Origin: Sulfitobacter sp. F26204
Lineage (GTDB): Bacteria > Pseudomonadota > Alphaproteobacteria > Rhodobacterales > Rhodobacteraceae
Length of the DNA: 64,000 nucleotides
Assembly (NCBI RefSeq): GCF_026410305.1
Contig: NZ_JAPMLQ010000002.1
Span: 372,001 to 436,000, forward strand
Reading direction: 5' to 3'
Under the pieces are notes generated by a model, which was given only the letters and a program-made list of their open reading frames with translations, was not told where the DNA came from and searched no databases. Of this stretch, positions 2,951 to 49,680 are shown piece by piece; position 1 is the stretch's first letter; every line of letters starts with the position of its first letter. Both the position numbers and the translations under genes were made by a program.

Positions 2951-4137
2951 CCTTTGTGAACCCGACCACCATGGACGCACAAATGGGTCGACAGATGCGC
3001 GGCCCTTCGGCTGTGATCTGGATGTGCGGTGTTGCGGTGTTGGTGTTTCTGACCTGGGCCGCCTTTGCATGGGTTGATGAAATTGTGCGCGCCGAAGGTT
3101 CGATGATCTCATCCTCGCGCCCGCAGATCATTCAAAACCTCGAAGGTGGTATTCTGGCAGAGCTTGAAGTGGCTGAAGGCGATATTGTGGAGCGCGGTGA
3201 CGTTCTGGCCCGGTTGCACGGGACGCAGTTCCAGTCCTCTGTGGATGATTTGCGCAACCAGATTTCGACATTCGAGATTCGCCGTTTGCGTCTGGAGGCG
3301 GAGCTCGCCGGACAGTTCGATTTTGACGTTCCGAATGAATGGGCAATGCGCACACCGAACATTGTCGATTCAGAACGTTCTCTTTTGCGGGCACGCCAGT
3401 CTGATTTCGTTTCGCGTTCCGATGGTGCCAAGCGCGTGCTGATCGAGGCAGAGCGCGAAGCCAACCTGATGAATGACCTGTTGGAGCGTAACATTGTATC
3501 GCTGATCGAGGCGACCCGTGCGCGAAAATCATTTGCCGATGCCCAGATCAGGTTTGACGAGGTGACAACCCAGACAGAACTGGAGCGGGCCCAGGAATAT
3601 TCCGATGTCCTAAAGGAACTGGCAACACTGCGCCAGAATCTGAAATCCAGCACCGACCAATTGAATCGTACCGTGCTGACAAGCCCGATGCGCGGGATTG
3701 TGAATAATTTGTCCGTTACCACGATTGGCGGGGTGGTGCGCCCCGGTGAGGAAATTCTGCAGATCATCCCCTTGGACGAGGAATTGTTTGTCGAGGCGCG
3801 GGTGCGTCCCGAAGATATTGCAGGGGTGCGCCCCGGTCAGGAAGCGACGGTAAAACTGTCGGCCTATGACTATACGATCTATGGTACACTCAAGGGGAAG
3901 GTTACCTTGATCTCGGCGGATACATTCAAGGACGAACGCGCCCGTGATCCAGATGGCAACCCCCATTACAAGGTGACACTGCAAGTGGACACCGAGCATC
4001 TTACCGAGCGTCAGGCCTCGTTGCGGATCAGACCGGGGATGCAGGCATCGGTTGAATTGCATACGGGGTCAAAGACGGTGATGCAATATCTGCTCAAGCC
4101 CTTGTACAAGAGCAAGGAAGCCTTTCGCGAACCCTAA
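2947..4137 (+). CDS. HlyD-family periplasmic adaptor of type I secretion
   Basis: 396-residue membrane-fusion protein. A short cytoplasmic tail and one transmembrane helix (about residues 24-44) are followed by a lipoyl-like half-motif (QNLEGGILAELEVAEGDIV), a long alpha-helical hairpin (about 90-235), the second lipoyl half (LTSPMRGIVNNLSV) and beta-barrel sequence to the end. This order is that of HlyD/LapC adaptors that link the inner-membrane ABC exporter to TolC. It overlaps the exporter gene by 4 bp (ATGA). It is the last gene of the operon; the next gene is on the other strand. Confidence 0.93.
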   Translation: MTFVNPTTMDAQMGRQMRGPSAVIWMCGVAVLVFLTWAAFAWVDEIVRAEGSMISSSRPQIIQNLEGGILAELEVAEGDIVERGDVLARLHGTQFQSSVDDLRNQISTFEIRRLRLEAELAGQFDFDVPNEWAMRTPNIVDSERSLLRARQSDFVSRSDGAKRVLIEAEREANLMNDLLERNIVSLIEATRARKSFADAQIRFDEVTTQTELERAQEYSDVLKELATLRQNLKSSTDQLNRTVLTSPMRGIVNNLSVTTIGGVVRPGEEILQIIPLDEELFVEARVRPEDIAGVRPGQEATVKLSAYDYTIYGTLKGKVTLISADTFKDERARDPDGNPHYKVTLQVDTEHLTERQASLRIRPGMQASVELHTGSKTVMQYLLKPLYKSKEAFREP

Positions 4138-18087: not shown

Positions 18088-18499
18088 CACATGCGGAAGG
18101 CTGGATGGCCGCGGTGCCCTTCGGGGTGTCGAGGAAAGTCCGGACTCCAAAAAGAGACGGTGCCGGGTAACACCCGGGCGGGGCAACCCGACGGAAAGCG
18201 CCACAGAAAACAGACCGCTTTTGTGCTTGCATGAAAGTAAGGGTGAAACGGTGGGGTAAGAGCCCACCACGCTTCTGGCAACAGCGGCGGTACGGCAAGC
18301 CCCACCGGGAGCAATGCCAAATAGGAACCGCGTGTCGCGGGCTTTCGGGCCAGTGACAGGGCTGCTTTTGCCCCAGCAGGTTCGGGTTGGCAGCTATAGC
18401 CACTGTGGCAACACAGTGGTCAGAGGAATGGTCATCCAACGTCAGCGGGTTTTCCCGGTGACGGGGACAAAATCCGGCTTACAGGCCTTCCGCATGTGT
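18088..18499 (+). ncRNA. rnpB: RNase P RNA (class A)
   Basis: Catalytic RNA of ribonuclease P, which trims tRNA 5' leaders. Recognised by conserved core segments in order: GAGGAAAGTCCGGACTCC (CR-I), AAGTAAGGGTGAAACGG, GGTAAGAGCCCACC, AGCAATGCCAAATAGG and ACAAAATCCGGCTTACAGGC (CR-V). The ends pair as the P1 helix: ACATGCGGAAGGC at 18089-18101 with its exact complement at 18485-18497. The ~410-nt length is typical. Boundaries are good to a few nt. Open frames across this interval are not genes. Confidence 0.97.
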
Positions 18500-38531: not shown

Positions 38532-39107
38532 ATGCCCAAGGTTGGAATGGAACCCATACGCCGCTCGGCTCTGGTGCAGGCGACGATTCAAGAGATCGGC
38601 GCAGCGCATTCCCTTGATGTAACCGTCGGCCAGATCGCAAAACGTGCCGGCATGTCGACGGCACTTGCGCATCACTATTTTGGAGGCAAAGACCAGATCT
38701 TCCTTGCTGCCATGCGCTTTATTCTGGCGGAATACGGCGACGAGGTGCGTGCCCGTCTGGCCGAAGCCCGCAGCCCGCGGGACCGTGCCGCCGCAATCAT
38801 CATCGCCAGCTTTGACGAAACCTGCTTTGCCCCGGCCACCGTGACCGCCTGGATGACCCTCTATGCCGCGGCACCGACGAACCAGGACACCAGGCGTTTG
38901 TTGCGGCTCTATCAAAGACGCCTGCGTTCGAACCTCACCCATGCCCTGCGCCCGATCAGTGCAACACCCGAAGCGGATTCCGACACGATTGCCGCCTTGA
39001 TTGACGGGCTGTATCTGCGTGCCGCCCTTTCCGAACGCGGCACAGCCTCGGCGGCGCGGGCAAGTGCCCTTTCCACGCTGCAGCTCTTGCTGGATGCCTC
39101 GTCATGA
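38532..39107 (+). CDS. betI: Choline-responsive repressor BetI
   Basis: 191 residues; TetR family. It starts MPKVGMEPIRRSALVQATIQ and has the BetI HTH VGQIAKRAGMSTALAHHYFGGKD. AGGACAGGATTCTCTG precedes the ATG. It represses the choline oxidation genes until choline is present. Overlaps betC by 4 bp (ATGA), so betI and betC are translationally coupled. Confidence 0.95.
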   Translation: MPKVGMEPIRRSALVQATIQEIGAAHSLDVTVGQIAKRAGMSTALAHHYFGGKDQIFLAAMRFILAEYGDEVRARLAEARSPRDRAAAIIIASFDETCFAPATVTAWMTLYAAAPTNQDTRRLLRLYQRRLRSNLTHALRPISATPEADSDTIAALIDGLYLRAALSERGTASAARASALSTLQLLLDASS

Positions 39108-40612
39108 GCAAACCCAACATTCTGATCCTGATGGTGGACCAATTGAATGGCACGTTGTTTCCGGATGGTCCGGCGGACTGGCTGCACGCGCCGAACCTCA
39201 AGCGGCTGGCGGCGCGGACTACCCGTTTCGCAAATTGCTACACGGCCTCGCCGCTCTGTGCTCCGGCGCGGGCGGCCTTTATGTCTGGCCAACTGCCAAG
39301 CGCCACGGGCGTCTATGACAATGCCGCCGAATTCGCCTCCTCGATTCCTACCTATGCACATCACCTGCGCCGGGCGGGCTATCAGACCTGCCTGTCGGGC
39401 AAGATGCATTTTGTCGGCCCCGACCAGATGCACGGGTTTGAGGAACGGCTGACCACGGATATATACCCGGCTGATTTCGGCTGGACCCCTGATTACCGTA
39501 AACCGGGCGAGCGGATTGACTGGTGGTATCACAACATGGGGTCGGTGACCGGGGCCGGTGTTGCGGAAATCTCCAACCAGATGGAATATGATGACGAGGT
39601 TGCCTATCACGCGACCCGCAAGCTCTACGATCTGTCACGTGGTGCCGATACACGGCCCTGGTGCTTGACGGTCAGCTTCACCCATCCCCATGATCCCTAT
39701 GTTGCACGCAAGAAATACTGGGATCTCTACGAAGATTGTGCGCAATTGCTGCCCGAGGTTGCGATGATGGCCTATGAGGATCACGACCCACATTCACAGC
39801 GTATCCTCGATGCCAACGACCGCGACAATTTCGACATCACCGAGAATGACATCAAACGCGCCCGCCGCGCTTATTTCGCCAATATCAGTTATCTTGACGA
39901 CAAGATTGGTGAGATTTTGCAAACTCTCGAAGAGACCCGACAGGAGGCGATCATCGTCTTCGTCTCCGATCACGGTGACATGCTGGGGGAACGCGGCCTC
40001 TGGTTCAAGATGTCCTTTTACGAAGGATCGGCGCGCGTGCCGATGATGATCTGTGCGCCACAGATGCAAGCCGGCCTGCAAACCACCCCGGTCAGCAGCA
40101 TCGACATCTGTCCGACTCTCTGCGCGTTGGCCGGCGTATCGATGCAGGAGGTCATGCCCTGGACCACCGGCCAGTCCCTGGTGCCGCTGGGGCAGGGCGG
40201 GGCACGCAGCGAACCTGTTGCGATGGAATATGCCGCCGAAGCCTCCTATGCCCCGATGGTCTCCCTGCGCTATGGAAAATGGAAGTACAACCGCTGCGCC
40301 CTCGATCCTGATCAACTTTTTGATCTGGACGCAGACCCGCATGAGTTGAGCAACCTTGCCGACCACCCCGACCATCAGGGTACCGTCACCTCGCTGCGCG
40401 CCAAATCCGAGGCCCGTTGGGACTTAGCCGTTTATGACGCGGATGTGCGTAAATCGCAGGCGCGCCGCTGGATCGTCTATGAGGCATTGCGTCAGGGGGG
40501 CTACTTCCCCTGGGATCATCAACCGCTGCGCAAGGCCTCGGAACAATATATGCGCAACCACATGGATCTGAACGTGCTGGAAGAAAGCAAACGCTTCCCG
40601 CGCGGCGAATAA
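39104..40612 (+). CDS. betC: Choline-sulfatase
   Basis: 502 residues; hydrolyses choline-O-sulfate to choline and sulfate. The formylglycine motif C-x-P-x-R is CAPAR at Cys52, and alkaline-phosphatase-fold metal ligands are seen in LILMVDQLNG and FVSDHGDMLGERGLWFKMS. The C-terminal choline-sulfatase tail (YFPWDHQPLRKASEQYMRN) is present. No signal peptide, so cytoplasmic: choline sulfate must be imported. The position in the bet operon confirms the assignment. Confidence 0.96.
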   Translation: MSKPNILILMVDQLNGTLFPDGPADWLHAPNLKRLAARTTRFANCYTASPLCAPARAAFMSGQLPSATGVYDNAAEFASSIPTYAHHLRRAGYQTCLSGKMHFVGPDQMHGFEERLTTDIYPADFGWTPDYRKPGERIDWWYHNMGSVTGAGVAEISNQMEYDDEVAYHATRKLYDLSRGADTRPWCLTVSFTHPHDPYVARKKYWDLYEDCAQLLPEVAMMAYEDHDPHSQRILDANDRDNFDITENDIKRARRAYFANISYLDDKIGEILQTLEETRQEAIIVFVSDHGDMLGERGLWFKMSFYEGSARVPMMICAPQMQAGLQTTPVSSIDICPTLCALAGVSMQEVMPWTTGQSLVPLGQGGARSEPVAMEYAAEASYAPMVSLRYGKWKYNRCALDPDQLFDLDADPHELSNLADHPDHQGTVTSLRAKSEARWDLAVYDADVRKSQARRWIVYEALRQGGYFPWDHQPLRKASEQYMRNHMDLNVLEESKRFPRGE

Positions 40613-40664
40613 CCCCTTCATCTTGCCCCTAAACCTCCCGCCGGAGGCATGAAAGTTCTTACCG

Positions 40665-42122
40665 ATGCCCTATGATACACAACCCCCCGCCAGCCATTTT
40701 ATCAACGGTTCCTACGTCGAAGACACGGCTGGCACTCCGATCGAGGTGATCTATCCCGCGACGGGGGCAAAAATTGCCACGGTCCATTGTGCGACGCCAG
40801 CCATCATCGAACAGGCGATCATCAGCGCAAGGCAGGCCCAGGTGGCTTGGGCTGCGCTCAGCGGCACGGAACGGGGCCGTATTCTGCGCAGGGCCAGCGA
40901 CATGCTGCGCGCATGTAACCACGACTTGAGCGTGCTGGAAACCTATGACACCGGCAAACCCTATCAGGAAACCTCAGTCGCAGATGCGACTTCCGGAGCG
41001 GATGCGCTGGAGTATTTCGGCGGCCTGGCGGCAACCCTGACCGGCGAACATATCCAGCTGGGCGAGAACTGGGTCTATACACGCCGCGAAGCGCTGGGCC
41101 TTTGTGTCGGCATTGGTGCCTGGAACTATCCCACCCAGATCGCCTGCTGGAAGGGAGCACCGGCGCTGGCTTGTGGAAATGCGATGGTTTTCAAACCATC
41201 TGAAACGACCCCGCTTTGTGCATTGAAGGTCGCCGAGATTCTGCATGAGGCCGGATTGCCGGCAGGGGTATATAATGTCGTGCAGGGCATGGGGGAGGTA
41301 GGCCAGGCGTTGGTCACGGACCCACGCGTCGACAAGGTTTCGTTGACCGGATCGGTCCCGACGGGGCGACGGGTCTATGCGGCAGCAGCCGAAGGGATCA
41401 AGCATGTCACCATGGAGTTGGGCGGCAAATCCCCGCTGATCATCTTTGACGATGCGGATATTGAAAACGCCGTAGGCGGGGCCATTCTGGGCAATTTTTA
41501 CAGCTCGGGCCAGGTCTGTTCCAACGGCACGCGGGTATTCGTGCACAAGGCCATCAAGGAGCAATTCTTGACCAGGTTGACCGAGCGGCTGAGCAAGGCT
41601 GTGATCGGTGATCCCATGGACCCCGAAACCAGCTTTGGCCCGATGGTATCAGAGCGGCAGATGAGAGTCGTGCTGGGCTGTATCGAAAAGGGACAGGCCG
41701 AAGGCGCGCGTCTGGTGACAGGGGGTGGGCGGATAGACCGCGAGGGCTTCTATCTGCAACCTACGGTTTTTGCCGATGTGACCGATGACATGAGCATTGC
41801 CCGCGAAGAGATTTTTGGCCCCGTGATGGCGGTGCTGGATTTTGAAGACGAAGACGACGTGATGACCCGCGCCAATGACACCGAGTTTGGCCTTGCGGCG
41901 GGTGTCTTTACCAAGGATCTGACCCGCGCTCACCGCGTTGCTGCGCGGTTCGAGGCGGGCACCTGTTACATCAACACCTATAACGATGCGCCGGTTGAGG
42001 CCCCTTTTGGCGGGTCCAAGAATTCCGGTGTCGGGCGGGAGAATTCCAAGGCAGCGATTGAACATTATTCGCAGCTGAAATCGGTTTTTGTGCGCATGGA
42101 TGATGTGGAAGCGCCGTTTTGA
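40665..42122 (+). CDS. betB: Betaine-aldehyde dehydrogenase
   Basis: 485 residues; NAD(P)-dependent oxidation of betaine aldehyde to glycine betaine. Catalytic Glu in [13 protein letters not shown] and Cys in [15 protein letters not shown]; the cofactor loop [13 protein letters not shown] and C-terminal [19 protein letters not shown] are as in BetB. Start at 40665 gives normal length; the GGAGG at 40642 is rather far upstream. 52 bp after betC. Confidence 0.96.
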
Positions 42123-42240
42123 GGGGGCGTGACCCAAAGGAGCGCTGACGCGCATTACATTTTGGTGCGGATGAGAGGTGAGCCCGGATTCGAGGGGCCT
42201 GTGCGGGGTTTGAGGATTTGGGAAATTTGCTGAGAGGTGC

Positions 42241-42264
42241 TTGAGGCCACAGTCTGTGGCTCAA
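42241..42264 (+). repeat. Hairpin in the betB-betA gap
   Basis: TTGAG(G)CCACA at 42241-42251 pairs with TGTGGCTCAA at 42255-42264: ten pairs, one bulged G, loop GTC. No U-run follows, so it is not a standard terminator. It lies 26 nt before the larger folded leader of betA. Confidence 0.55.
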
Positions 42265-42289
42265 GACACCTGATCAATTTTGAAGGTGC

Positions 42290-42364
42290 GATTCCCCGCA
42301 GCCTCAAGGACAAGCCGGGCAAGCCCGGTGCGCGAAGGGCGCATCCTTGACCCTGCGCGGAATC
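42290..42364 (+). promoter_or_regulatory. Three-way-junction structure in the betA leader
   Basis: Outer stem: 42290-42310 pairs with 42344-42364, 18 of 21 positions Watson-Crick (mismatches at 42296, 42302 and 42303). Inside are two perfect hairpins: CCGGG/CCCGG (42315-42328, loop CAAG) and TGCGC/GCGCA (42329-42343, loop GAAGG). The structure ends 14 nt before the betA ATG. Could be a post-transcriptional control element, an RNA processing site or a palindromic repeat element; no known riboswitch is recognised. Confidence 0.6.
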
Positions 42365-42378
42365 ACGGGAGTGGTGAG

Positions 42379-44037
42379 ATGAAGGCGGAATTTTTAATTG
42401 TCGGGGCGGGTTCGGCGGGCTGTGCGATGGCCTATCGTCTGGCCATGGCGGGGCGCAGGGTTATCGTGATTGAACATGGTGGCACGGATGCGGGTCCGTT
42501 CATCCAGATGCCTGCTGCCTTGTCCTATCCCATGAACATGAAGCGTTACGATTGGGGCTACAAATCCGAACCGGAACCGCATCTGGGCGGGCGGCGTCTG
42601 GTCTGTCCACGGGGCAAGGTGATTGGTGGATCCTCCTCCATCAACGGGATGGTTTATGTGCGCGGCCATGCGCAGGATTTTGATCATTGGGAAGCAGAAG
42701 GTGCCCATGGCTGGGGCTTTGCCGATGTCCTGCCCTATTACAAGCGCATGGAAAACTGGCATTCGGGTGGTCATGGCGGTGATCCGGCATGGCGGGGTCA
42801 CGACGGCCCGTTACATGTGAGCCGGGGTAGGCGGGCCAATCCGTTGTTCGAGGCCTTTGTCCGATCGGGAGAACAGGCAGGGTATCAGGTGACGGATGAT
42901 TACAACGGTGCCCAGCAAGAAGGTTTTGGGCCGATGGAGCAGACCGTCTGGAAGGGACGGCGCTGGTCTGCGGCCAATGCCTATCTGCGGCCGGCGCAAA
43001 AGACCGGCAATGTGCAGCTCGTGCAGGGGCTGGCGCAGCGGATCGTGATTGTCGATGGCCGGGCCACCGGGGTTGAAGTGTTGCGGCGGGGGCATTCCGA
43101 GGTAATCGAGGCGGAGCGTGAAGTGGTGCTTGCCGCGTCTTCGATCAATTCCCCCAAGTTGTTGATGTTGTCGGGGATTGGTCCTGCGGCGCATCTGTCT
43201 GAACACGGCATCGAGGTCGTGGCCAACCGGCCCGGTGTGGGAGCGAACCTGCAGGACCATCTGGAAATGTATATACAGATGGCGGCCTCCCAGCCGATCA
43301 CGCTCTACAAGCATTGGAACCTTTTGTCCAAAGCCCTGATCGGCGCGCAATGGTTATTTACCAAAACGGGCATGGGAGCGTCGAACCAGTTTGAATCCGC
43401 CGGTTTTATCCGTTCGAAAGCGGGGGTGCCCTATCCAGACATCCAGTTTCATTTTCTGCCGATTGCTGTGCGCTATGACGGGCAGGCAGCGGCAGAAGGA
43501 CATGGGTTTCAGGCCCATACAGGGCCAATGCGTTCGCGCTCCCGCGGGACGGTGACCCTGCGTTCGGCGGATCCTGCCGCAGATCCGGTAATCCGGTTCA
43601 ACTATATGTCCCATCCGCAGGATTGGGAGGAATTTCGCACATGTATCCGCCTGACGCGTGAAATTTTCGCCCAGGAAGCGTTCAAGCCTTTTGTAAAACA
43701 CGAAATCCAGCCTGGCGCGGCCTATCAGACCGATGCGGAGTTAGATGAAGTGATCCGCGAGCATGCCGAGAGTGCCTATCATCCCTGTGGCACCTGCCGG
43801 ATGGGCCGCGCCGATGATCCGCAGGCCGTGGTTGACCCGCAGGCGCGGGTGATTGGCATCGAGGGGCTGCGTGTGGCGGACAGTTCGATCTTCCCGCGCA
43901 TCACCAATGGCAACCTGAACGCGCCGTCGATCATGGTAGGGGAGAAGGTGTCGGATCATCTGCTGGGGCTCGATCCCTTGCCGCGGTCCAATGATGAACC
44001 GTGGAACCATCCCGATTGGAAAACCGCCCAGCGTTAG
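42379..44037 (+). CDS. betA: Choline dehydrogenase
   Basis: 552-residue GMC-family FAD oxidoreductase that oxidises choline to betaine aldehyde. FAD-binding [14 protein letters not shown] at the N terminus; [20 protein letters not shown], the GMC signature; and C-terminal HPCGTCRMG and [16 protein letters not shown] with the catalytic His/Asn region. The start at 42379 is fixed by the FAD motif; the upstream 33 codons of the frame lie within the folded leader and are not family-like. 256 bp separate it from betB. Confidence 0.96.
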
Positions 44038-47203: not shown

Positions 47204-48145
47204 TTATCCCAGTGCGCTTTCTTCAAGCCCCAACTGGCGACAAATCATGGCCGCATCGTCTTTGCGTTCGACGGTCAAAGCGCTGGCGTTAGACGGCGGC
47301 AAGCCGGAGGTATTGGTGGCCTTTGTCAGATGCCCGAATTTCGCCGGAGACTGACCGATAAAGGCGTCAAAGCTCGCTGGGTTCTGGGTGCAAAGTGCCG
47401 TTGCCCAATTCACCATGGCAGGCGTGATGTGACCCTCAGCGAGCGCCGCTTGCACCTTCGCCTGCGCATTGGCCTCCGCCTGCGCGCTGGCCTGCTCGTT
47501 GCGATCATCCATGGCGCTTTTCATGGCCTCAATCGGCACGTACTTTTCAGGATCAGGCATGGCGTCCAGCGCCTTATCCAACGCCTGCGCAATCTCGTCA
47601 TCGCTGGCAGTGTCAGACAAACCCAGCATCTTTATGATGCGCTGGGTCAGCGTCATGTCATCCGGCTTGGTGCCGGGGGTGTTCTTGTCCATGGTGAAGT
47701 CCTCTGAGGCGAGTGCGGTAAGGGTGAGATTGGGGTGGTGAACAAGGCCTGCGCCGTTCAGCCAGCGGACCTCGGTTTCGCCGGGGCGGTGCATCAACAC
47801 CGGGCTGAGATAGCGGTACGCTTTCTGCGCGATCAACTCGCGCGCTTTGGCGGTCCAGTCTACACGGCCCCAGATGCCATCGGCACGGGCCTGCAACTCC
47901 TTGATCCATCCGGCGGCGGGTACGGGGCCGCTGCGCTTTTCAGACTGGGTTTCCGACTGGTGTTCATAGTCGATGGGCAGGTCTGTGCCACGGGCGTTGA
48001 ACGTGTCGACAATGCCTTGAGGGTTGCTGACCGTCCACGCACGGCCGTCACGCCCCTGCGCCCGCACGGCGGGCAACAAGTGGACCCATTCCGGCGCGTC
48101 TGCGCTGACCTCTTGAGCGCAAAGATGGGCGGAATAATGGGTCAT
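47204..48145 (-). CDS. Mu-like head protease/scaffold (gpI family)
   Basis: 313 residues. The N-terminal protease half (WVHLLPAVRAQGRDGRAW, LPIDYEHQSETQSEKR, AAGWIKELQARADGIWGRVDW, YRYLSPVLMH) matches Mu gpI. The C-terminal half, from an internal ATG at MDKNTPGTKPDDMTLTQRI, is Ala/Gln-rich and scaffold-like; a GAGGACTTCACC site precedes that ATG, so a separate scaffold protein (gpZ type) may be made, as in Mu. Its start overlaps the decoration gene's stop by 4 bp. Confidence 0.88.
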   Translation of the reverse strand: MTHYSAHLCAQEVSADAPEWVHLLPAVRAQGRDGRAWTVSNPQGIVDTFNARGTDLPIDYEHQSETQSEKRSGPVPAAGWIKELQARADGIWGRVDWTAKARELIAQKAYRYLSPVLMHRPGETEVRWLNGAGLVHHPNLTLTALASEDFTMDKNTPGTKPDDMTLTQRIIKMLGLSDTASDDEIAQALDKALDAMPDPEKYVPIEAMKSAMDDRNEQASAQAEANAQAKVQAALAEGHITPAMVNWATALCTQNPASFDAFIGQSPAKFGHLTKATNTSGLPPSNASALTVERKDDAAMICRQLGLEESALG

Positions 48146-48573
48146 AGGTTTCGGGCCATGGCCTCGTCAAACCGGACCCACACGCCACGGGGTTCAACGT
48201 CTGCGATAAACCCGGCCACTGAGCGGGTGCCAGTGCCATCCGTCTTTGCGACTGTCTGATCATCCACGGCATAGCAGACCGCGCCAATGTCAGCCGTCGC
48301 GATCAGGTCAGCCGCTGCGCTGTTCGCCAGCAAAAACGTGCCCGCCTGATATTCACCCTTTGTGGTGCCATTGGCAGCGCCTGTGTCCGCAATCGCGGCC
48401 ATCGCGATCCCGACGCCCACCGCGCCGACAACAGGCTGCCCGATGGTCAGAAAGCCGTCGCCCCGACGCAAGAGCATTGCCCCGACAAACACGGTCTCGC
48501 CGGATGCCATAGGGCCAAGCATGTTATCGCCAAGGCGTTGAAGGGTGTTGCGATCTTTGATCAGTGCTGTCAT
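48142..48573 (-). CDS. Phage head decoration protein (DUF2190-like)
   Basis: 143 residues rich in Ala/Gly/Val with alternating strands (GFLTIGQPVVGAVGVGIAMA; GEYQAGTFLLANSAAADLIA), typical of the small capsid-stabilising proteins between protease and major head protein in Mu-like phages. Overlaps the protease gene (ATGA) and follows the major head gene by 12 bp, so the three form one transcript. Confidence 0.7.
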   Translation of the reverse strand: MTALIKDRNTLQRLGDNMLGPMASGETVFVGAMLLRRGDGFLTIGQPVVGAVGVGIAMAAIADTGAANGTTKGEYQAGTFLLANSAAADLIATADIGAVCYAVDDQTVAKTDGTGTRSVAGFIADVEPRGVWVRFDEAMARNL

Positions 48574-48585
48574 CGCCTTGCCCCC

Positions 48586-49482
48586 CTACGCCGCCAGATA
48601 CGGTGTGACGAGCAAGTCAGCGGTCTTGCTCCAAGGGTTTGTTCCCCCACCGTCATTGAATTCGGTGTTGACGATTTTCAGGGCCGCTTCTTCGAGTGCA
48701 GGCGGCACCACCAACATCATCGGTTTCACGCCCAGAATGCGCCCCGTGTCGCTCTTGAAGTTCATCATCGCGGCGCGCGCGGCGGCATAGTTGGCGGCAG
48801 TCAGTTCGGCCTTGGACCCAAAGCCCAGTTGCCACAGGCCAAAGCCCGCGTTGACCCGTGCGCGAACGCCGTAGAGATACTCGTCGTTCTTGAAGACGTG
48901 TTCATCGGTCGGGCGATCCATCGCCTCAAACTCGTATTTCTCGCGCTCTTGCCAGATGATGGGCCGCACGGCCCGCGACGTGTCCAGCAGGAACCATGGC
49001 GGCTCAGCGCCTGCCTGCATGTTGCTCACGCTGACCACCTCGCCTTCCGGGTTCAGTGTCGGGTGATCCGTGTCGAAGAAATATTGGCCGTCATAGCACT
49101 CGGTCTCGAACCCGGATGCCAAGAGGTTGAACACCAGTTCTTCGGGGTGGTTCGTGGCCAGATGGCCCATCTCGGAAAACGCGGGCTTGAAAACACCCAG
49201 CTTGTCGTCGCTGATATGGTCCCGGCTGACCTTGACCGTGCTTTCAAACTTGCGGTTCACGATCTTGAAGCCATGGGCCTCAAGATTATGGATGACACGC
49301 GGTCCCAGCCATTCGCGCAGCTGAGGGAATTGTCCCATCCAGCCATAGGTTTCATCTGCCCCGACGCTGGTCGATTGCATGGCAATCTTGTCCCAATTCG
49401 GTTCGGCTTTCAGAAAGGCGTCTGTGTAGACGGTTTTGAAGCCCTGAAAGACGAGATCGAGGGTCTGCGCGTTGACGAGCAT
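48586..49482 (-). CDS. Mu-like major head protein (gpT family)
   Basis: 298 residues from the ATG at 49482 (AAAGGA upstream); the longer frame to 49653 is not used. Features: MLVNAQTLDLVFQGFKTVYT, KIAMQSTSVGADETYGWMG, REWLGPRVIHNLEAHGF and KSDTGRILGVKPMMLVVPP, all typical of Mu gpT. It appears complete, including the C-terminal NDGGGTNPWSKTADLLVTPY. In the order of transcription it comes first in its operon, ahead of decoration and protease genes, the reverse of Mu. Confidence 0.92.
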   Translation of the reverse strand: MLVNAQTLDLVFQGFKTVYTDAFLKAEPNWDKIAMQSTSVGADETYGWMGQFPQLREWLGPRVIHNLEAHGFKIVNRKFESTVKVSRDHISDDKLGVFKPAFSEMGHLATNHPEELVFNLLASGFETECYDGQYFFDTDHPTLNPEGEVVSVSNMQAGAEPPWFLLDTSRAVRPIIWQEREKYEFEAMDRPTDEHVFKNDEYLYGVRARVNAGFGLWQLGFGSKAELTAANYAAARAAMMNFKSDTGRILGVKPMMLVVPPALEEAALKIVNTEFNDGGGTNPWSKTADLLVTPYLAA

Positions 49483-49680
49483 GGTGGCGGTCCTTTTGAG
49501 GTTGGCAAGGCCCGGAAAGCAATCCCGGACGGTTGCGGATAACGTAGGACGGCACCGGATGGCCGGACATCCACAAGCATATTGCGGGGAAGGGTTTGGG
49601 GGGGTGCTGACTGGCCCCAAGCCGGACGTCCAAAACGACCGAGTTAAAAGCAAGGCACCTGATGCGCAGCCAGTCCCCTA

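Follow-up and report, generated by a model that had tools for sequence, protein, structure and literature searches.

The window analysed here (64,000 nucleotides of Sulfitobacter sp. F26204, contig NZ_JAPMLQ010000002.1, positions 372,001 to 436,000) carries a betC-like gene followed by betB and betA, names which for the latter two rest on NCBIfam equivalog models. The gap between betB and betA contains a structured element, designated E, and the features of the region are the following:

39104-40612, betC-like choline sulfatase gene, upstream of betB
40665-42122, + strand, betB, betaine-aldehyde dehydrogenase, the upstream gene (ORF; NCBIfam TIGR01804 and NF009725 above cut-off)
42129-42166, + strand, 5' module GTGACCCAAAGGAGCGCTGACGCGCATTACATTTTGGTG, with a small GCGC-TGAC-GCGC hairpin and, after it, a T-rich stretch (sequence comparison, partly by eye)
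42228-42368, + strand as read with betA, core repeat unit E, consisting of the P1 hairpin, a linker and a three-way junction (R1 match, alignment A2, 84 genus copies)
42235-42271, + strand, P1 hairpin AGGTG.CTTGAG (bulge) NNNNN-NNN-NNNNN CTCAAG N CACCT (fold, alignment and covariation)
42288-42366, + strand, three-way junction, outer stem P2 around two hairpins (fold and covariation)
42290-42294, unstranded, GATTC, a GANTC (CcrM-type) site on the 5' arm of the outer stem (site count in genus copies)
42314-42329, + strand, hairpin P3 with CAAG loop (fold)
42330-42342, + strand, hairpin P4 with GAAGG loop (fold)
42360-42364, unstranded, GAATC, the second GANTC (CcrM-type) site, on the 3' arm of the outer stem (site count in genus copies)
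42379-44037, + strand, betA, choline dehydrogenase, the downstream gene (ORF; NCBIfam TIGR01810 above cut-off)

The first-pass annotation had described a three-way junction at 42290-42364, and the fold bears this out: the minimum free energy is -42.3 kcal/mol vs -26.0 ± 3.4 in shuffled sequences (z -4.86; 0 of 200 shuffles as good), and the outer stem comprises 6+5+7 = 18 pairs over 21 positions (42290-42310 with 42344-42364), its conserved flanks reaching 42288 and 42366. The two enclosed hairpins, P3 (GCCGGG-CAAG-CCCGGU) and P4 (GCGC-GAAGG-GCGC), have the loops attributed to them, but they are not both perfect, the basal pair of P3 being a G.U. Likewise, the smaller hairpin that had been placed at 42241-42264 exists as the inner part of a longer one (42235-42271). 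As P1 is conserved together with the junction, the conserved unit amounts to approximately 141 nt (42228-42368). The distances given in the annotation were reproduced, with 14 nt between junction and betA (42364 to the ATG at 42379) and a betB-betA gap of 256 bp (42123-42378); measured from the end of the E core, betA starts 10 nt downstream. Against the CM R1, the window copy scores 148.1 bits (E-value 9.3e-28), being itself one of the 47 rows from which R1 was built.

In a terminator scan of 42000-42500 the betA strand was free of sites and the other strand had a single weak one, inside the junction, where 0.5 are expected by chance; the 5' module was scored as no terminator in the same scan. 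This module, in which TGATCC, AAGG and a GCGC-loop-GCGC hairpin, often with a T-rich stretch and TTGG, can be recognized by eye, often accompanies the E core and also occurs without it. It was seen after genes, with the core present or absent, in the window (42129-42166) and at loci L169, L181, L183-L185, L198, L201-L205, L207, L209, L210 and L212, and is possibly a weak terminator or a second repeat. Just 5' of betB, CCTCCCGCCGGAGGCA (40634-40649) resembles the end module of a mosaic repeat of genome G108, described below, and is possibly another common intergenic palindrome. Elsewhere in the window, Mu-like prophage genes are found on the - strand (47204-49653; Mu-like prophage I protein, PF10123, and major head subunit gpT, PF10124), as well as a bacterial RNase P RNA class A (18093-18497). 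In Ruegeria, transcription of the choline/betaine pathway is described as being under BetI repressors.

E is a dispersed repeat of Rhodobacteraceae. Searching the own genome with 42235-42380 revealed a second copy, which covers nearly the whole query at 74% identity, lies 173 kb away on the same contig and takes up the space from a 3-hydroxyisobutyrate-dehydrogenase-like gene to the 3' end of a facing L-serine ammonia-lyase gene. The DNA query matched 25 of 78 genomes (own included), all matches falling within the same genus, and a pattern scan of named genomes detected 37 loci, which belong to Sulfitobacter, Tateyamaria, Roseobacter, Rhodophyticola and uncultured Rhodobacteraceae and include two chance matches, in Hymenobacter and Granulosicoccus, from both of which the junction is absent. 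With R1, at least 84 copies were detected in 35 of 62 genus genomes (own included; one to six per genome), a lower bound obtained from 53 candidates scored per genome (86 rows minus 2 reverse-strand overlaps). In the family sample, at least 59 of 394 genomes, own included, carried E (59 of 393 genera sampled), again a lower bound since at most eight candidates were scored per genome, and in three of the weakest of these genomes the junction is incomplete. Five of the family genomes were scanned more deeply, with 150 candidates scored per genome, which yielded at least 41, 22, 17, 12 and 11 copies, the most in G108 (at least 41) and G143 (22, with 8 reverse-strand partial rows left out). In the class sample, with eight candidates scored per genome, E was found in 3 of 385 genomes: the own genome, another member of the family and a genome from outside it that holds the junction part only.

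The first-pass annotation had offered a palindromic repeat element as one of its readings, and had named many copies elsewhere in the genome as what would refute a leader RNA. The repeat reading is upheld by the 14 neighbourhoods that E occupies within the genus and by the at least 41 copies of a single other genome; the search for copies elsewhere was positive in other genomes, though only two were found in that of the window. No Rfam (release 15) match was obtained here at gathering score, nor any at E-value ≤ 1 for 42000-42600. Viral contigs (pattern search) and plasmids and phages (blastn) gave no match to E in what were sequence searches rather than R1 searches, and among the best matches of searches in the open-access literature no title or abstract named the E repeat. 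In G108 (L269-L307) most copies have the core inside a larger mosaic repeat that includes additional conserved modules, and many end in ...AATTCACTTTCTTCAAATATACCCCGCCGGAGGCA.

Conservation of the structure was evaluated in alignment A2, which contains 47 distinct copies aligned with MAFFT without structure. The structure was written from the window copy, one of its rows, which favours the real pairing over slid versions; with this proviso, it is formed in 89.5% of cells and both-side changes occupy 176 cells, vs 63.8 in shuffles and no more than 54 with the partner strand slid. Of the five covariation measures, two stay near the shuffles (pairs with a both-side change, 17 vs 15.5; pair types, 43 vs 38.8), as the shuffles keep the column make-up. 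The five-pair inner helix of P1 is exchanged wholesale among copies (e.g., CCACA/TGTGG, GATCA/TGATC, GCGCA/TGCGC) and, in the outer stem, four pairs each occur as four or more standard pair types; alignment is poorer in P3 and P4 (69-71% paired). Conservation of the TCAAGGA/TCCTTGA blocks equals that of the GANTC sites, and the conserved blocks are common to betA and non-betA copies. Thus, the compensatory changes in orthologous leaders for which a covariation analysis had been proposed are present and, together with the copies elsewhere, they indicate a structure that is both repeated and conserved.

The 84 copies of the genus are distributed over 14 locus groups, and 51 of them lie beside genes other than betA, the neighbours being, among others, Lrp and P450, Lpd and methyltransferase, ffh and GNAT, dehydrogenase and L-serine ammonia-lyase, and ValS and enoyl-CoA hydratase. 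Pfam matches on the flanks comprised an Lrp regulator with a P450, a dihydrolipoamide-dehydrogenase-type enzyme with a methyltransferase, Ffh with an acetyltransferase, TetR with pirin, a valyl-type tRNA synthetase with an enoyl-CoA hydratase, OmpA with an M23 peptidase, an FAD oxidase with a phosphoribosyltransferase, and proline dehydrogenase, among others; several upstream frames of genus loci had no Pfam match. For these other loci, clustering by locus on the copy tree is weak or absent (Lrp 9 changes vs 11.5 shuffled, Lpd 8 vs 9.6, ffh 7 vs 7.8, with few columns), and the Lrp/P450 and Lpd/methyltransferase copies intermix.

Most copies of E occupy convergent or tandem gaps; divergent (promoter) gaps seldom contain one. 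Among 50 copies from other genera, 29 were in convergent, 15 in sense tandem, 6 in antisense tandem and 0 in divergent gaps, and among the 36 classifiable of 39 G108 copies the figures were 20, 8, 4 and 4, respectively, as called by a home-made codon-usage gene caller that disagrees with simpler calls for some groups. Background gaps of at least 100 bp from the same loci were convergent in 1, divergent in 14 and tandem in 6 cases (0, 10 and 10 in the G108 set), giving a Fisher p of about 2e-5 for the enrichment of convergence in each set, with a small background that does not vary independently of the sites. Once nine betA copies are excluded, the tandem copies were 6 sense and 6 antisense in other genera, and 8 and 4 in G108. 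For the genus loci listed (at most six per group), the distance from the 3' edge of E to the stop of the facing gene ranges from -11 to 26 nt; in G108 most facing genes are at least 60 nt away. At L127 the stop codon of the facing gene is a TGA inside the end of E, and an offset of -5, which implies the same arrangement, occurs in 8 of the 50 other-genus copies (so at L216, L225, L230, L232 and L238); E would thus supply or overlap the stop. The betA and Lpd copies sit within co-directional gene pairs.

Within the genus, betA is present in 60 of 62 genomes (own included) and is preceded by E in 33. In 28 genomes betA occurs without E, with gaps of 0-265 nt, five of which contain the 5' module only (by eye), eight a conserved frame and the rest other sequence; one such gap (G042) measures 39 nt. 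The frame, open over 83-85 residues, replaces E in betB-betA gaps of 250-256 nt at L180, L182, L186, L187, L190-L192 and L194. In L024 and L027, E is kept at betA and the 5' module is gone. From the E core to the betA start there are 5-19 nt in the 32 genus copies placeable by pattern, and in other genera E lies 3-64 nt before betA in at least 13 of 56 genomes with both, a lower bound because eight candidates were scored per genome; in G235, E follows betB and another gene precedes betA. Mapped onto a betB 3'-end tree of 60 genomes, 32 of them with E, the presence of E requires 12 changes vs 20.1 shuffled, and on the tree of the 84 copies those at betA need 4 changes vs 26.2 shuffled, implying that most of them were inherited. 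At L115 (element at 3003-3139), E precedes betA and the upstream frame ends like the choline sulfatase of the window, with no betB between; this copy groups with those of the ffh locus and either arrived independently or results from a rearrangement. At the betA locus, the copy is old, mostly inherited by descent and often shared, and it is not required.

Both arms of the outer stem carry GANTC in 67 of the 84 genus copies, including 30 of 33 at betA, while 14 are without both sites, 10 of these belonging to the Lrp and Lpd groups. The middle base of the 5'-arm site varies (T 54, G 27, A 2, C 1), its neighbours hold in 73-79 of 84 copies and the adjoining stem bases vary freely. In 65 further copies, mostly from other genera, 44 have at least two GANTC in the junction part and 19 have none; both sites are found in 36 of 39 G108 copies, and L309, the junction-only match from outside the family, keeps GAGTC and GACTC on the two arms. 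GANTC occurs in the window at 1.6 per kb. The genome encodes a protein with a RAMA domain, which is taken here to mark CcrM-type enzymes; among 14 control genomes, Caulobacter alone has one.

With respect to the strand, raw junction energy was better on the betA strand in 1 of 33 betA copies and in 1 of 25, 0 of 26 and 0 of 39 others; among the 65 further copies it was better on this strand in 4 and on the other in 60, with 1 tie, and a set of 16 betA copies, most of them from other genera, gave 15 in favour of the other strand and 1 tie. The consensus energies were -43.0 (other strand) vs -36.9 (betA strand). This better folding of the strand opposite to betA mRNA was discarded as a strand signal after a shuffled control, since the mean difference is 4.59 kcal/mol in real and 4.16 in shuffled copies, a near equality due to the betA strand being richer in A+C. 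Dinucleotide shuffles of 24 of the 84 copies gave mean z-scores of -5.2 (betA strand) and -5.8 (other strand), the latter being more extreme in 16 of 24. Read on the betA strand, the outer stem contains 39 A.C vs 12 G.U in 84 copies (one column left out), 30 vs 11 after thinning to 66 copies and 9 vs 2 in the 33 betA copies. This excess speaks against selection on a betA-sense RNA, and composition skew may be its cause. No clear strand preference was evident for P1 in betA copies; the betA strand was favoured in the Lrp/Lpd-type group.

By analogy, the kinds of element closest to E would be Caulobacter CIR, REP/BIME and ERIC repeats. The CIR (CIR1-4) were reportedly described by Chen and Shapiro in 2003. 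According to the summary given in a review, these CcrM-associated intergenic repeats of Caulobacter and other alphaproteobacteria are multicopy, measure approximately 110-140 bp and have two long hairpin arms, a linker and conserved GANTC (PMC2229807). E has the same two arms with linker, intergenic location, multiple copies and conserved GANTC, at about 141 nt vs about 110 bp; it differs in that its GANTC lie at the base of the larger arm, the outer stem, instead of at or in the terminal loop as stated there for CIR, and in that one of its arms is a three-way junction. REP/BIME, including the CGTC-tagged REPs of alphaproteobacteria, are characterized in the source consulted as intergenic palindromes, often dimers, found mainly in convergent and unidirectional gaps, the convergent ones mostly at less than 20 bp from ORF 3' ends (PMC3733652). 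This placement near ORF 3' ends is also that of E, which in contrast to those 20-40 bp high-copy units with a GTAG or CGTC tag spans about 141 bp, has a low copy number in the genus and showed no such tag at its ends by eye. ERIC/IRU and NEMIS/Correia are, in the account of the same review, structured intergenic repeats of roughly 100-170 bp that are transcribed together with adjacent genes and have been connected with mRNA stability or cleavage by RNase III (PMC2229807); they differ from the two-armed E in having a stem formed from two ends, terminal inverted repeats and TA ends. As for MITE-type ends, E copies with the 5' module show by eye imperfect ends resembling GTGATYC, and the core also occurs without the module. 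In the Rhodobacter puf operon, also of Rhodobacteraceae, a structured intercistronic region forms a hairpin reported to set protein stoichiometry by segmental mRNA stability (PMC11354728); that hairpin belongs to a single operon and E is comparable to it by functional analogy only.

Altogether, this evidence makes it probable that E at betA is a copy of a dispersed, two-armed palindromic intergenic repeat which, when transcribed, behaves as a generic 3'-end or intercistronic hairpin. The structure before betA being one copy of an old scattered repeat, a private switch for choline metabolism is unlikely. The betaine- or osmolarity-sensing leader suggested in the first-pass annotation is not supported, given the 51 of 84 genus copies beside other genes, many of them convergent and without a downstream start codon, and the 28 genomes with betA and no E; a betaine riboswitch was likewise rejected on distribution (14 locus groups, family-wide copies, convergent gaps). 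More generally, a dedicated cis-regulatory RNA of betA, whether riboswitch or protein-binding leader, that sets BetA against BetB is highly improbable. Such a leader would account for betA being the locus most often shared (33 of 62 genus genomes and 13 of 56 from other genera), for the short distance to its start, for the covarying stems and for the retention of E in L024 and L027 despite loss of the 5' module, but confinement to one pathway upstream of start codons is not what the locus groups display, the conserved blocks are found in non-betA copies as well and A.C outnumbers G.U on the betA strand, although this may be due to composition skew.

A purely selfish or neutral MITE-like repeat kept by descent, whose position would reflect promoter avoidance and whose covariation could come from palindrome correction in DNA, has more in its favour and is a possibility to be taken seriously, if still doubtful. 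It agrees with the presence of E at betA being scattered over the betB tree, with the 41 copies of G108 and their cores inside a larger mosaic repeat, with the intermixing of Lrp/P450 and Lpd/methyltransferase copies and with the tandem copies off betA having no clear orientation bias; against it, the betA copies keep their sequence and structure from genus to genus, many pairs showing compensatory changes, and the recurrence beside betA in many genera exceeds what a neutral repeat need show. Somewhat unlikely is a bidirectional termination or mRNA 3'-processing element serving both genes of a convergent pair. Convergence in 29 of 50 other-genus and 20 of 36 G108 copies, facing stops close to E or within it, and a fold far better than shuffles on both strands point in this direction, but the terminator scan, the co-directional pairs at betA and Lpd and the distant facing genes of G108 do not. 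The paired GANTC sites suggest a further candidate, a DNA-level element linked to CcrM/GcrA in which these sites and not the transcript would matter. Their frequency in all three sets of copies, the variable middle base between constant neighbours and free stem bases, and the RAMA-domain protein are consistent with it; in view of the 14 genus and 19 further copies without sites, and of TCAAGGA/TCCTTGA blocks being equally conserved, it is nevertheless considered unlikely. That the betA copy was recruited as a methylation-marked folding element, whose GANTC sites and junction would together adjust the ratio of betB to betA transcripts in the course of the cell cycle, appears improbable.

Under the preferred reading, that of a dispersed repeat acting as a generic hairpin, the past spread of E would have resembled that of REP/BIME, CIR or MITE, as a non-autonomous element. 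As its position suggests, the transcribed hairpins may act, like those of ERIC, as 3'-end structures of a generic kind, stopping 3'-to-5' exonucleases or marking the site of an RNase cut. In betBA, taking the puf intercistronic hairpin as a model, E would uncouple betB mRNA from betA mRNA, its action would need no ligand, and an effect on the BetB:BetA ratio is possible.

E represents a structured repeat family of Rhodobacteraceae without an Rfam match, and illustrates that a supposed "leader RNA" with covariation may in fact belong to a dispersed repeat. If the betA copy were indeed a recruited element, betBA would be an operon tuned by a domesticated repeat. The fact that the betA copy is kept in many genera while copies elsewhere vary provides a natural comparison between tolerated and useful repeats in this family.
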